NCBI RefSeq assembly: GCF_002934625.1
Contig: NZ_PTJD01000003.1
Coordinates: forward strand, 310,001-374,000
From: Kineococcus xinjiangensis
GTDB taxonomy: Bacteria > Actinomycetota > Actinomycetes > Actinomycetales > Kineococcaceae
Direction of reading: 5' to 3'
DNA length: 64,000 nucleotides
Shown here: positions 49,446-52,297 of the stretch, piece by piece
How positions within the stretch are numbered: position 1 is the first letter of the stretch
Layout: every line of letters starts with the position of its first letter
Position numbers and translations under genes: made by a program
The notes under the pieces: generated by a model
Seen by the model: only the letters and a program-made list of their open reading frames with translations
What the model was told of the DNA's origin: nothing
The model's database searches: none

Positions 49446-49943
49446 GTGGTCCACGTGGTGTTGCGGCCGATCGAGGACTCCGACCTCGACGCGCTGTTCG
49501 AGCAGATGCGGGATCCCGAGTCGGTGCGGATGGCTGCGTTCACCGTCCGGGATCCCGGCGACCGCGCCGCGTTCGACGCCCACATGGCGAGAGTGCGGAC
49601 GTCGCCCGGGGTGACCGCCCGCGCCGTCACCGCCGACGGACGGCTCGTCGGCAGCATCGCCGCCTTCGTGGTCGACGGGGACACCGAGGTCACGTACTGG
49701 ATCGACAGGTCCTGCTGGGGCCGCGGCATCGCCGGCCGGGCGCTCGAGCTGCTCCTGGAGGCGGTCCGCGTCCGGCCCGTGTTCGCCCGGGTCGCGAGCG
49801 ACAACGCTGCCTCGCTCGCGGTGCTGCGGAGAGCGGGCTTCGCGATCACGGGGACGGAGGTGTCCCACGCCAACGGCCGGGGAGCGGAGATCGAGGAGAC
49901 GATCCTGCGCCTCGACGAATCCGCGGGGACGGCGCACTCCTGA
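49446..49943 (+). CDS. GNAT family N-acetyltransferase
   Basis: 165 residues. VLRPIEDSDLDALFEQMRDPE, WIDRSCWGRGIAGRALELLL (acetyl-CoA pyrophosphate loop, R/G-x-x-G-x-A type) and ARVASDNAASLAVLRRAGF with a RimJ/RimL-like end indicate an acyl-CoA N-acyltransferase acting on a protein or small-molecule amine. It starts at GTG 49446, with GGGGAGG upstream. The Y-RNA region begins about 60 bases after it; a functional link is not shown. Confidence 0.85.
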   Translation: MVHVVLRPIEDSDLDALFEQMRDPESVRMAAFTVRDPGDRAAFDAHMARVRTSPGVTARAVTADGRLVGSIAAFVVDGDTEVTYWIDRSCWGRGIAGRALELLLEAVRVRPVFARVASDNAASLAVLRRAGFAITGTEVSHANGRGAEIEETILRLDESAGTAHS

Positions 49944-50004
49944 TCGGGGCCCAGCGGAAACTCGATTGCCCGGCGACGGTCCGCGCTGCCACAGTTCGCT
50001 CCTG

Positions 50005-50078
50005 CGACGCGGTGCGAAGGCCCGGGTTACTTCCCTGTCGAGGAAACACCCACCCGGGCCGGCTGGTCCTCGCGTCGT
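50005..50078 (+). ncRNA. Third Y-RNA-like hairpin RNA, without tRNA module
   Basis: The inner helix is nine perfect pairs (50019-50027 with 50052-50060), followed by TACTTCC and a TTCC/GGAA top stem around CTGTCGA. Outside, CGACGCG (50005-50011) can pair with CGCGTCG (50071-50077). Two motifs link it to the two RNAs downstream. GGTGCGAAGG at 50011-50020 compares with GATGCGCAGG. GGGTTACTTCC at 50024-50034 compares with GGGATACTTCC and GGGTTACTCC. Its 3' outer strand is also the first bases of the next RNA's closing helix, so the two foldings exclude each other. A decayed copy or a regulatory leader is possible. Confidence 0.45.
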
Positions 50079-50223
50079 CTGCGGGCTGCTCGATGCGCAG
50101 TCGCGGGATACTTCCTGGTCCTCGCGGGTTCGAATCCCGCCGGGCGCTCCCGTGCGCCCGGTAGCGCACCTCGGTGCGCGGTTCCCGTGGCGAGGGGTTC
50201 TCGAGCAGTTCGCAGACGACGCG
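50071..50223 (+). ncRNA. Y RNA (YrlA-like) with circularly permuted tRNA module, copy A
   Basis: The closing helix pairs 50071-50093 with 50201-50223: 23 continuous pairs including two G-T. An internal loop with CGATGCGCAG on the 5' strand follows, then TCG/CGA and CGGGA/TCCCG, then ATACTTCC. The head is a permuted tRNA: T-arm GCGGG-TTCGAAT-CCCGC (50124-50140), acceptor hairpin CGGGCGC/GCGCCCG (50141-50147 with 50154-50160, loop TCCCGT), then TA and D-arm GCGC-ACCTCGGT-GCGC (50164-50179). Stem plus acceptor total 12 pairs, as in tRNA. This order matches that reported for bacterial YrlA RNAs, and the rsr gene follows. Exact RNA ends are not known. Confidence 0.85.
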
Positions 50224-50240
50224 GTTTCCGGTGCACACCA

Positions 50241-50412
50241 CCGCGCCGGATGGTGCCGCACCGATGCGCAGGCGGGGGTTACTCCTTCCTCATACGTGTG
50301 TCGCTGGTTCGAGTCCAGCCCGGAGGGACCGGTTCCCCCCGGTAGCTCAGTCGGCAGAGCAACGTGCAGCCCCCCGCCGCCCCGGTCGACGGTACGGCTC
50401 CATCCGGCGCGG
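50241..50412 (+). ncRNA. Y RNA (YrlA-like) with circularly permuted tRNA module, copy B
   Basis: The closing helix has 13 perfect pairs (50241-50253 with 50400-50412), then GCCG/CGGC and ACCG/CGGT, an internal loop holding CCGATGCGCA, and the 8-bp helix GGCGGGGG/CCCCCGCC (50271-50278 with 50371-50378). After TTACTCC and ACGT/ACGT comes the permuted tRNA. The T-arm is GCTGG-TTCGAGT-CCAGC (50303-50319). The acceptor hairpin is 50320-50327 with 50335-50342, with one A-C mismatch. Then come TA and the textbook D-arm GCTC-AGTCGGCA-GAGC (50345-50360). It shares the internal-loop sequence with copy A although the helices differ, as expected for a bound motif. It ends 72 bases before rsr. Confidence 0.85.
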
Positions 50413-50484
50413 CAGCGCCGTGGCCGACACGACGTCCGGGGCACCGTGCCCCGGAGGATCCGGAAGGAGCACCAGGAGACGACC

Positions 50485-52131
50485 ATGGCACGGTTCAGCG
50501 GCATCCGGCAGCGCCTGCTCGGGCGCGCCCCCCAGCGCACCCTCGAGCGCACCACCACCCACGAGGGCGGTGCGGCGTTCGTGCGCGACGCGAGGAGCGA
50601 CCTGTTCCTCCTCGCCGCCGTGAACATGGTCGGGCAGGACTCCTTCTACGAGGGCGCGGGCGAGCGCGACGAGCGGTTCCGCCGCCTCGTCCACGCCGTC
50701 ACGGTGCAGGACCCCGACTGGGTCGCGCGCTTCGTCCCGTTCCTGCGCAACGAGATGAACATGCGCACCGCGGCCGTCGTGATGGCCGCGGAGTCGGCAC
50801 GGGCGCGCCGCGACCTCGCCGTCCTGCACTCCCGCCCGGACCCGGCGACCACCTCGATCCGCCGCATGGTGGACTCCGCGCTGCAGCGCGCGGACGAGCC
50901 CGCGGAGTTCCTCGGGTACTGGTGGTCGCGCTACGGCAAGGCGATGCCGAAGGGCGTCCAGCGCGGCCTGGCGGACGCGGTCACCCGGCTCTACGACGAG
51001 CGCGCCGTGCTGCGCTACGACGGGAACTCCCGCGCGATCCGGATGGCCGACGTCGTCGAGCTGGTCCACCCGACCCCGCGGGCGCCGTGGCAGTCGCAGC
51101 TGTTCCGCGCACTGCTCGACGAGCGCCACCACGGCGACCGCAGCGCGCCGCAGGAGGAGGTGCGTGCGCTGTCCGCGCGTGACCGTCTCGTGCGACTCGC
51201 ACCCGCCGAGCGGCACGCCCTCGCCCGCCTCGTGCGGGCCGGGGACGCCGCGGCGACGGCCGAGTTCGAGGCGGCCACGGCGGGGCAGTGGGAGTGGGTG
51301 CGCTCCTGGCTCGGCGAGGCGCCGCCTGCGGACGGGCTCACCCCCGCCGAGCAGTGGGAGCTGGTGATCCCCCTCATGGGCGTCATGGCGCTCGTGCGGA
51401 ACCTGCGCGGTTTCGACGAGGCGGGTGTGTCCGACGAGGTGGCGGCGACGGTCGCGGCGAAGCTCGCCGATCCCGACGTCGTCGCGCGCTCCCGGATGTT
51501 CCCGTACCGGTTCCTGTCCGCGGCGCTGGAGGCCCCGTCGCCGCGGTGGGCGTGGCCGCTGGAGCAGGCGGTGCGGGCCTCGACCGCTGCGGTCCCGGCC
51601 CTGGGCGGGCGGACGCTCGTCCTCTGCGACACCTCCGCGTCGATGTCCACGCCGGTGTCACAGCGCTCGAAGGTGCAGCACGTCGACGTCGGCGCGCTGT
51701 TCGCCGCGGTGCTGGCGTGCCGCGGCGAGCGGGTCGACCTCGTCGCCTTCGCCAGCGGGTGGGAGGGCGTGCCGGTCCGGCCGGCCGAGGGCGTGCTGCG
51801 CACCGTGCAGCGCGTCCGCGGGCGCATCGGCGCGGTCGGGCACGGCACGGAGACCGCGGCGGCGCTGCGGGCCTCCTACGCCGGGCACGACCGGGTGGTG
51901 ATCGTCTCGGACATGCAGGCGTTCGCGGACGCTCGGTGGGGCCGGGGCGCGAGCGTCTCGACGGCGGCGCCGGCGCACGTGCCGGTGTACGGCGTCAACA
52001 CCACCGGGTACGCGCCGGCGGCCCTGGACCTGTCGGAGCGCAACCGGTACGAGATCGGCGGGTTCAGCGACAAGCTGTTCTCGATGATCGCGATGGTGGA
52101 GGGGGGCCGGGACGCCGGCTGGCCCTTCTGA
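50485..52131 (+). CDS. rsr: Rsr, bacterial Ro60 orthologue (TROVE domain and vWFA domain)
   Basis: 548 residues, close to Ro60 and Deinococcus Rsr. The TROVE part, a ring of HEAT-like helices (about 15-350), shows NMVGQDSFYEGAGERDERF, VPFLRNEMNMRTAAVVMAAE and YWWSRYGKAMPKGVQRGLAD. The C-terminal von Willebrand A-type domain (about 370-548) has the metal site DTSASMS and VVIVSDMQAF. Ro proteins bind misfolded or structured RNAs in the ring and Y RNAs on its outer face; in bacteria, Y RNA can tether Rsr to exonucleases such as PNPase. The ATG has AGGAGA eight bases upstream. No rtcB or pnp gene is adjacent. Confidence 0.92.
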   Translation: MARFSGIRQRLLGRAPQRTLERTTTHEGGAAFVRDARSDLFLLAAVNMVGQDSFYEGAGERDERFRRLVHAVTVQDPDWVARFVPFLRNEMNMRTAAVVMAAESARARRDLAVLHSRPDPATTSIRRMVDSALQRADEPAEFLGYWWSRYGKAMPKGVQRGLADAVTRLYDERAVLRYDGNSRAIRMADVVELVHPTPRAPWQSQLFRALLDERHHGDRSAPQEEVRALSARDRLVRLAPAERHALARLVRAGDAAATAEFEAATAGQWEWVRSWLGEAPPADGLTPAEQWELVIPLMGVMALVRNLRGFDEAGVSDEVAATVAAKLADPDVVARSRMFPYRFLSAALEAPSPRWAWPLEQAVRASTAAVPALGGRTLVLCDTSASMSTPVSQRSKVQHVDVGALFAAVLACRGERVDLVAFASGWEGVPVRPAEGVLRTVQRVRGRIGAVGHGTETAAALRASYAGHDRVVIVSDMQAFADARWGRGASVSTAAPAHVPVYGVNTTGYAPAALDLSERNRYEIGGFSDKLFSMIAMVEGGRDAGWPF

Positions 52132-52166: not shown

Positions 52167-52221
52167 GGCGGGGACGTTCGGCAGGCGACACACCGGTGTC
52201 GCCCGGCCGAACGTCCCCGCC
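52167..52221. repeat. Long palindromic element, copy 2, after rsr
   Basis: Outer arms GGCGGGGACGTTCGG and its complement (52167-52181 with 52207-52221) enclose the stem GGCGACAC/GTGTCGCC (52184-52191 with 52196-52203). It has the same outer sequence as the element at 18188. It probably ends rsr transcription. Confidence 0.85.
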
Positions 52222-52238
52222 CCGCGGGGTGCTCGACC

Positions 52239-52297
52239 GGGGCGGGGACGTTGCGCAGGCGACGCGCCGGTGTCGCCCGGCCGAACGTCCCCGCCCC
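52239..52297. repeat. Long palindromic element, copy 3
   Basis: Outer arms GGGGCGGGGACGTT and AACGTCCCCGCCCC (52239-52252 with 52284-52297) surround GGCGAC/GTCGCC. It directly follows copy 2 in tandem and reaches the stop of the opposing gene at 52299. Confidence 0.85.

Follow-up and report, generated by a model that had tools for sequence, protein, structure and literature searches.

What are the small RNAs that are encoded directly in front of rsr in the actinobacterium Kineococcus xinjiangensis, and do they belong with the Rsr protein as Y RNAs? The locus lies in a stretch of 64,000 nucleotides (positions 310,001 to 374,000 of contig NZ_PTJD01000003.1; this whole stretch is called the window here, and its first letter is position 1), and a first-pass annotation had described two tRNA-mimicking RNAs in it. 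We find three Y RNA genes, arranged in tandem at 50005-50411 on the plus strand between a GNAT acetyltransferase gene and rsr. Two of them, copies A and B, have the permuted heads that had been described (T-arm, acceptor hairpin, TA, D-arm), while a third, head-less Y RNA lies inside the annotated interval and had gone undescribed. We consider it highly probable that the window holds an actinobacterial Ro ribonucleoprotein cassette, in which three small Y RNAs are followed by rsr, and this judgement includes the roles proposed below. The parts of the locus are as follows.

49446-49943: GNAT acetyltransferase gene, the upstream flank of the Y RNA cluster.
50005-50078, plus strand: head-less Y RNA (YrlB-like) with a closing helix, the core GGTGCGAAG at 50011-50019, a second helix and GGTTACTTC, and with no tRNA module.
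50071-50223, plus strand: Y RNA copy A, whole predicted RNA of about 153 nucleotides, closing helix 50071-50093 with 50201-50223.
50091-50100, plus strand: core internal-loop motif CGATGCGCAG of copy A, at the same position as the core of 60 relatives.
50124-50179, plus strand: permuted tRNA head of copy A, found with the descriptor given below; T-arm 50124-50140, acceptor hairpin 50141-50160, GTA 50161-50163, D-arm 50164-50179.
50242-50411, plus strand: Y RNA copy B, whole predicted RNA of about 170 nucleotides, closing helix 50242-50253 with 50400-50411.
50262-50271, plus strand: core internal-loop motif CGATGCGCAG of copy B.
50293-50297, plus strand: 5' strand TACGT of the open anticodon stem of copy B, pairing with 50362-50366.
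50303-50360, plus strand: permuted tRNA head of copy B, found with the descriptor and aligned with 13 relatives; T-arm 50303-50319, acceptor hairpin 50320-50342, TA 50343-50344, D-arm 50345-50360.
50362-50366, plus strand: 3' strand ACGTG of the same open anticodon stem.
50485-52131, plus strand: rsr (Ro60/Rsr), 548 amino acids, with a TROVE ring and a vWA domain containing the MIDAS motif DTSAS.

The three RNAs are built on a common plan, in which a closing helix is followed by a GRUGCGMAG core loop, a second helix and then GGxUAC(U)UC or a sequence near it (in the DNA letters of the window RNAs, GG(A/T)TAC(T)TC or close to it). The core internal loop reads GATGCGCAG in copies A and B and GGTGCGAAG in the head-less RNA, and the motif that the first-pass annotation had regarded as shared by the two copies is present in both. 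Copies A and B carry in addition a circularly permuted tRNA-like head, consisting of T-arm, loop-closed acceptor and D-arm. In copy A the T stem is GCGGG/CCCGC with the loop TTCGAAT, the acceptor is CGGGCGC/GCGCCCG, the linker is GTA and the D stem is GCGC/GCGC. In copy B the T stem is GCTGG/CCAGC with the loop TTCGAGT, the acceptor CCGGAGGGA/TCCCCCCGG contains one A-C mismatch, the linker is TA and the D arm is GCTC-AGTCGGCA-GAGC. T stem and acceptor had been counted as 12 pairs, which is right for copy A; copy B has 5 plus 8 of 9, that is, 13 pairs and a mismatch. Both heads have U8, A9, A14, the GG of the D-loop, a pyrimidine at position 48 (Y48) and the T-loop letters of tRNAs, and copy B also has a purine at position 15 (R15) and A21. 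The head of copy B is joined to the Y stem via the open anticodon stem TACGT with ACGTG, whose equivalent (columns 37-41 with 107-111) covaries in relatives (alignment A3, 14 rows). When the RNAs were folded with RNAfold, copy A reached -104.5 kcal/mol (z -8.5, with 0 of 200 shuffled sequences as stable), copy B -88.0 kcal/mol (z -2.8) and the head-less RNA -36.1 kcal/mol (z -2.3), in agreement with the long closing helices that had been reported for the two copies.

A separate observation concerns the strands 50005-50011, 50071-50077 and 50217-50223, where one strand serves twice, closing the head-less RNA on its 3' side and beginning the 5' closing strand of copy A. Since these two RNAs share a strand, their closing helices are mutually exclusive. 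A switch based on this sharing was considered and rejected, because the sharing is not conserved, being seen in the window and possibly in one other locus (L109) among 17 loci.

To locate the heads we used a descriptor with four elements, namely a T-arm, an acceptor hairpin that closes on itself, a linker with T, TA or TG at its end, and a D-arm containing GG; the core motif plays no part in it. The TTCRA loop and the GG are required, A14 is rewarded by the score, and Y48, R15 and A21 are not used. In the window, exactly two matches were obtained on the plus strand (50124-50179 and 50303-50360) and zero on the minus strand. In addition, covariance models were built from the RNAs of relatives with the window excluded, R1 from 60 RNAs, R2 from 13 and R3 from 29 head-less Y RNAs; their E-values are rough by the search tool's own statement. 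With R1, copy B scored 79.5 bits (50257-50397, E 2.6e-19) and copy A 68.7 bits (50086-50209, E 2e-16); the next match in the window had 14.2 bits, and the head-less RNA was not matched even when E values as high as 10 were allowed. R2 scored 79.7 bits for copy B (E 2.8e-17) and 63.5 bits for copy A (E 2.4e-13), and R3 scored 59.9 bits for the head-less RNA at 50005-50078 (E 3.3e-11; next in the window 20.3 bits). The proposal that these are YrlA-type Y RNAs is supported in that models of the rsr-linked Y RNAs of other species match them and in that they resemble Rfam YrlA.

Several observations weigh against this reading. At Rfam's own cut-offs, no match was found in the whole 64-kb window. 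With permissive settings over 49900-50520, YrlA (RF02553) matched copy B at 50272-50380 with 38.3 bits (E 7.3e-7) and copy A at 50117-50170 with 22.2 bits (E 0.03), and YrlB (RF02565) matched the head-less RNA at 50006-50079 with 20.5 bits (E 0.2). Against gathering thresholds of 69, 69 and 97, these scores give the RNAs no formal family membership. (A match of Rfam VA, RF00102, over copy A, 22.1 bits, E 0.3, was discarded as chance level, the long helix alone being thought responsible.) Copy A has neither a purine at 15 nor A21, and its anticodon stem is barely paired in the predicted fold, the site reading TACTTCC-TGG, as if an anticodon loop might have been lost. With these three defects, copy A is a poorer tRNA mimic than copy B. 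No sigma-70-type promoter or intrinsic terminator was found at the locus, which has little weight for an actinobacterium. Finally, pairs of ordinary tandem tRNA genes score near the Rfam value of copy B and near the R1 value of copy A.

The last point leads to the possibility that the heads are remnants of tandem tRNA genes, in which the T-arm of one tRNA and the D-arm of the next imitate a permuted head. Such pairs do exist: in the three loci checked (L014 1475-1626, L019 1486-1637 and L026 1486-1638), tandem tRNA-Asn genes with the same anticodon give RF02553 matches of 40.9-44.5 bits and part-matches to R1 (positions 27-103) of 64.4-65.3 bits. Six control genomes, those of E. coli and B. 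subtilis among them, likewise contain RF02553 matches at E ≤1e-3, and six of the loci studied lie in or beside tRNA arrays. However, these tandem-tRNA matches span the tRNA part of R1 only, whereas copies A and B match positions 1-137, closing helix and core included, and ARAGORN finds no tRNA at either copy. Moreover, the acceptor covaries (double changes in 6 of 7 pairs), and the descriptor has zero matches on the strand opposite rsr in 84 loci around rsr relatives, compared with rsr-strand matches in 66 of them, some being tRNA pairs (for example in L076). Copies A and B are convincing because of the full-length R1 match with core and closing helix and because no tRNA is called there. We therefore reject a tandem-tRNA origin for the window RNAs, giving it almost no chance of being right, and retain their reading as Y RNAs; for Y RNA searches in general the trap is real. 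Given these tandem tRNAs, neither the RF02553 matches at E ≤1e-3 in 105 of 396 genomes of the phylum nor the R1 matches at E ≤1e-8 in 60 of 396 can be used as Y RNA counts. Full-length R1 matches of at least 64 bits were found in nine of the 396, the window's genome included, and RF02553 at the Rfam cut-off, with stricter filters, in 0 of 396. In the whole genome to which the window belongs, R1 gives 12 matches at E ≤1e-3, of which copies A and B are the top two and the only ones above 36 bits; the remaining ten have 28.5-35.9 bits, and all six inspected overlap or adjoin ordinary tRNA genes.

The first-pass annotation had named a lack of compensatory changes among relatives as grounds for refuting it. 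Such changes were observed in the closing helix and in the T, acceptor and D arms, so that the annotation is not refuted on this ground. Alignment A2 comprises 60 of 64 heads, namely those typed as having a fourth, anticodon arm (described below); the four omitted are window copy A, the head of L094, a true tRNA of L076, and L109, which has no motif match. Alignment A3 comprises all 14 heads at spacing 37-40. Membership of A2 required at least 4 of 5 anticodon-stem pairs and U33, and the descriptor required the T, acceptor and D arms; because of these required arms the paired percentage is biased for the T, acceptor, D and anticodon stems, and the double changes are less so. In A2, 93.5% of the cells of the tested structure are paired, compared with 73.2% after shuffling, and 309 cells are changed on both sides, compared with 98. 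The covariation score is 0.515, compared with 0.171 for shuffled alignments and 0.071 to 0.116 for slid partners. Of the 29 pairs tested, 20 show double changes; at least as many are also obtained in 12 of 500 shuffles. The second helix, which is required by nothing, has double changes in 7 of 8 pairs, and in the closing helix of the RNAalifold consensus (columns 1-6 with 164-169) each pair is changed on both sides in 7 to 22 of the 60 sequences. This closing-helix covariation holds for the relatives, the window helices having sequences of their own. The core columns G10, C11, G12, A14 and G15 are invariant in the 60 relatives, and across 83 heads of relatives the tertiary signature is nearly complete (Y48 in 82, R15 in 80, A21 in 78 and A14 in 81).

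The gene next to the Y RNAs had been called rsr, and its product confirms this. Pfam TROVE matches with 48.7 bits against a cut-off of 23 (E 8.4e-13), and the vWA match is weak and under the Pfam cut-off. An AlphaFold model built from 18 sequences has a pLDDT of 82.3 and a pTM of 0.80, and when it was compared with the PDB by Foldseek, all 13 matches at E ≤0.001 were Ro60, Rsr or TROVE chains (E 4.8e-17 to 1.1e-10; TM 0.58-0.69 by query length), including phage phiLo Ro60, human Ro60 and D. radiodurans Rsr (2nvo). The rsr product is thus predicted to have the Ro60 fold, a ring of helical repeats with a vWA domain. A 721-amino-acid open frame at 49966-52131 was rejected as a longer protein, since the homologue alignment begins near the ATG at 50485 and the added stretch is GC-rich DNA that holds the Y RNAs. 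Directly 3' of rsr, at 52170-52223 and 52244-52297, there are two 54-base direct copies, 50 of 54 bases identical and each largely self-complementary. Two RtcB RNA ligase genes are present in the same genome (C15 46841-47935 and C10 56877-57983), and neither is beside rsr.

How common is such a locus? In a scan of named genomes, 425 stretches encoding an Rsr relative were found and 80 loci were kept; the Rsr relatives of these, from Streptomyces and other actinobacteria, show 45-57% identity in the best segment. R1 was searched against 90 sources, namely the window, 83 distinct cellular loci (the duplicate L094 excluded) and 6 phage loci, and gave 157 matches at E ≤1e-8, 156 of them full length. 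Such a match is present in 77 of the 83 distinct cellular loci. L047 and L082 have weaker matches and L102 has marginal ones only, among tRNA genes, and no R1 match was found in L005, L060 and L106, the last of which has almost no upstream sequence. On the strength of the 425 stretches and the 77 loci, such loci are common in actinobacteria, and we judge the earlier claim of a lineage with few examples to be weak. It is within the window's own order that rsr is rare: it was found in 5 of 297 genomes searched, the own genome included, and in none of 11 other listed genomes of the family. The Y RNA-rsr cassette was likely gained horizontally.

The best 150 R1 matches include 147 that lie upstream of the rsr of their own locus. 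Within 1.5 kb upstream, in the 83 sources represented among these 150 matches (window and phages included), one head-bearing copy is present in 32, two in 35, three in 9, four in 2 and none in 5, and head-less copies are frequent beside the head-bearing ones in relatives. An array like that of the window is thus the usual arrangement in actinobacteria. Some Streptomyces loci contain mini Y RNAs (L054 3754-3839, L049 3756-3839, L050 3763-3847 and L061 3733-3820), whose sole tRNA feature is the T-arm hairpin CAGGTTCGAATCCTG; they are a step between the head-less and the head-bearing forms. In six loci (L006, L076, L096, L097, L102 and L103), rsr lies in or beside chromosomal tRNA arrays with 5 to 30 tRNA genes per locus. 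The same is seen in phages, and this suggests that the carriers are mobile tRNA-array elements. Phage records holding an Rsr relative number 65 of 50,697. In Gordonia phage VanLee, the tRNA-Arg(tct) annotated beside the Ro gene (L118 2704-2775) represents the 5' half of a Y RNA with four arms (R1 112.5 bits, 2703-2841), and the tRNA-Arg(cct) annotated in Streptomyces phage GiJojo (L119 2769-2843) overlaps an R1 match of 58.3 bits at 2764-2911. ARAGORN repeats both calls, and it also calls Y RNAs tRNA in L062, L091 and L096 (in all, 5 of 9 loci scanned). On their sequences, the two phage genes are better read as Y RNAs.

The position of the cluster, directly upstream of rsr on the same strand, is also what would be expected of a cis-acting leader that controls rsr, for example by sensing of tRNA enzymes or by Rsr feedback, and that is not released as free RNA. 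Copy B ends at 50411, 73 nucleotides before the rsr start codon at 50485, and no terminator-like site was found between them. A strong GC-rich hairpin, CCGGGGCA-CCG-TGCCCCGG, is located at 50436-50454 shortly 5' of the ribosome site of rsr, with no T run. However, some Y RNA matches follow rsr (L006, L120) or precede it by kilobases (L103, L111), and in studied bacteria Y RNAs are described as Rsr-bound noncoding RNAs in the available parts of PMC7790460 and PMC8394870. We regard a leader as unlikely, and prefer the reading as free Y RNAs of an Rsr particle.

What do the heads of the relatives look like? Upstream of the T-arm, many of them have five bases that resemble a variable loop (AGGTC, TGGTT) and, beyond these, a strand of five bases, a loop of seven and the complement of the strand, which together read as an anticodon arm. 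A fixed-register test was made with 87 descriptor heads (L094 dropped), of which the 53 with the core motif exactly 42 bases before the T-arm were kept. At least 4 of 5 pairs are formed in 49 of these, U33 is present in 49, a purine at 37 in 50 and A38 in 51, and pairs and U33 occur together in 48. When the register was slid by 1-6 bases, at most 23 heads had the pairs and at most 9 the pairs and U33. Among the five exceptions, L056 and L073 fit when shifted by one base, L077 forms the stem but lacks U33, and L111 and L114 fail. A core-motif head is present in 60 loci, and the 48 four-armed heads are spread over 47 of these. In tRNA numbering the RNA enters at 27 and exits after the D-arm at 25 or 26, so that the four-armed head of relatives reads as a complete tRNA whose chain is opened between 26 and 27. 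A first count of the arm (69 of 88) was replaced, as it tried three registers, kept whichever paired best, and included two true tRNAs (L076) and, by chance, window copy A; a looser count (80 of 150) was discarded as evidence for having tried three registers. ARAGORN on un-permuted heads was not used either, since 77 of 88 called as tRNA, compared with a mean of 63.2 with the anticodon part shuffled, is not discriminating; on the 88 heads still permuted, it called 24, two being the true tRNAs of L076.

Some points speak against this fourth arm. Most of the outer pairs are U-G or an unvarying C-G, Y RNAs that lack the arm also conserve the UUC strand, and double changes occur only at the inner pairs 30-40 and 31-39; two such pairs are also reached by 326 of 500 shuffles, the covariation score by 0 of 500. 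RNAalifold, unprompted, left the anticodon region unpaired in the consensus of the relatives. A closed arm is absent from both window copies, copy A having only chance pairing (two Watson-Crick pairs) and copy B 3 of 5 pairs.

The arm might also be a purely structural cap, in which U33, a purine at 37 and A38 stabilise a seven-base U-turn loop and the anticodon has no meaning. Consistent with a cap, six anticodons occur among 14 orthologous copies (13 from Lentzea and one from Nocardia sp. NRRL S-836), namely GTT in 7, TTT in 3, and CCT, GCA, GTA and TGG, and other Y RNAs manage without the arm. In these orthologues, bases 27-31, 33 and 38-42 are invariant; the entropies at positions 34-36 are 1.20, 0.95 and 0.95 bits, and positions 44, 48 and 59 also vary (0.95, 0.86 and 0.99). 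Constant stems together with changing anticodons argue against copying of whole arms from different tRNAs. Anticodon statistics were also taken from 58 R1 matches at standard spacing, one phage RNA included, with the limit that R1 itself favours the arm. At least 4 pairs are formed in 50 of these, compared with a mean of 34.5 and a maximum of 41 when the 3' strands were swapped. Bases 36 and 37 are U36A37 in 30 and G36G37 in 10, and when base 37 was permuted 10000 times the resulting 40 was reached in 0 cases. U36A37 is the t6A site and G36G37 the m1G site of tRNAs. This coupling mirrors the rule of tRNA modification sites and is not obviously needed for a U-turn. We hold the cap to be a possible explanation, of somewhat less than even probability. 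Recognition of the arm by proteins that bind anticodon loops, as decoy or bait, has about an even chance. The wider proposal is equally balanced in our judgement: the commonest head of these actinobacterial Y RNAs would be a four-armed permuted tRNA on a Y stem, its anticodon changing within a loop that is otherwise fixed and competent for modification (U36A37 or G36G37), held by Rsr as decoy or bait for proteins that attack, modify or sense anticodon loops of tRNAs, and the window copies would be three-armed derivatives, copy A by deletion of the anticodon loop. No mention of an anticodon arm in a Y RNA was found in the parts covered of PMC8394870, PMC9569102, PMC7790460, PMC9176250, PMC8190616, PMC4726728 and PMC7824862; key primary papers lie outside this set, and priority is not established.

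Based on these observations and on studied systems, we suggest how the particle may work. In the available part of PMC8394870, the basal stem of YrlA tethers Rsr and its head binds PNPase, DusA and TruB modify the head, and three tRNA arms (D, T and acceptor) are given as those that Y RNAs of bacteria copy. By analogy, the basal stem and core of each window Y RNA would be held by the Rsr ring, and the head of copies A and B would fold into a tRNA elbow and be modified by tRNA enzymes. The head may then dock a partner, PNPase in the studied case, giving an RNA-degrading or RNA-quality-control particle, and the head-less RNA may occupy Rsr without a docking module. In relatives, the anticodon arm might engage proteins that read the shape of the anticodon loop, as decoy or docking surface rather than for decoding. 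For Salmonella, the accessible portion of PMC7790460 reports that the anticodon nuclease left YrlA uncleaved and proposes that the tRNA-like domain might inhibit such a nuclease competitively; the RNAs of the relatives bear the very arm that an anticodon nuclease would cut. A large actinobacterial branch, missed by the Rfam cut-off, thus appears often to copy all four tRNA arms. With the four-armed form, the purpose of tRNA mimicry becomes a direct test, namely which anticodon-loop enzymes or nucleases bind. The annotation of two actinophage 'tRNA-Arg' genes, which overlap Y RNAs, is corrected at the same time.

Compared with known systems, the window RNAs appear to be a divergent actinobacterial branch of a known kind of Y RNA, three-armed, of known topology and formally outside the Rfam families. 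Like YrlA (RF02553), they have the order T-arm, acceptor hairpin, TA and D-arm, an AUGC internal loop and a place beside rsr; copy B, whose head is linked by an open anticodon stem as in YrlA (in copy A this stem is barely paired), aligns over model positions 1-114. Unlike YrlA, the window copies have a longer GC-rich closing helix, the core GATGCGCAG and scores far below gathering, and many relatives add a closed anticodon arm that is missing from the Rfam consensus. The head-less RNA resembles YrlB (RF02565) in lying next to a YrlA-like RNA and rsr and in its GGxUUAC motif, but it is located upstream of the head-bearing copies and of rsr. The rsr-yrlBA-rtcBA operon of Salmonella likewise combines one Rsr with YrlB and YrlA, as far as the excerpts of PMC7790460 go; in the window, however, the Y RNAs precede rsr, there are two head-bearing copies, and the two RtcB genes are on other contigs. 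The Rsr-Y RNA-PNPase particle RYPER of D. radiodurans, as presented in the available text of PMC8394870, shares the Rsr fold and a Y RNA with a basal stem and an effector head; for the window particle, PNPase is a putative partner. The tRNA-like domain of tmRNA is, in the partial accounts available, similar in that an RNA imitates part of a tRNA and has T-loop modifications. In contrast to tmRNA, the Y RNAs are permuted and have no coding part, and whereas tmRNA lacks an anticodon arm, the four-armed heads of the relatives appear to copy it.

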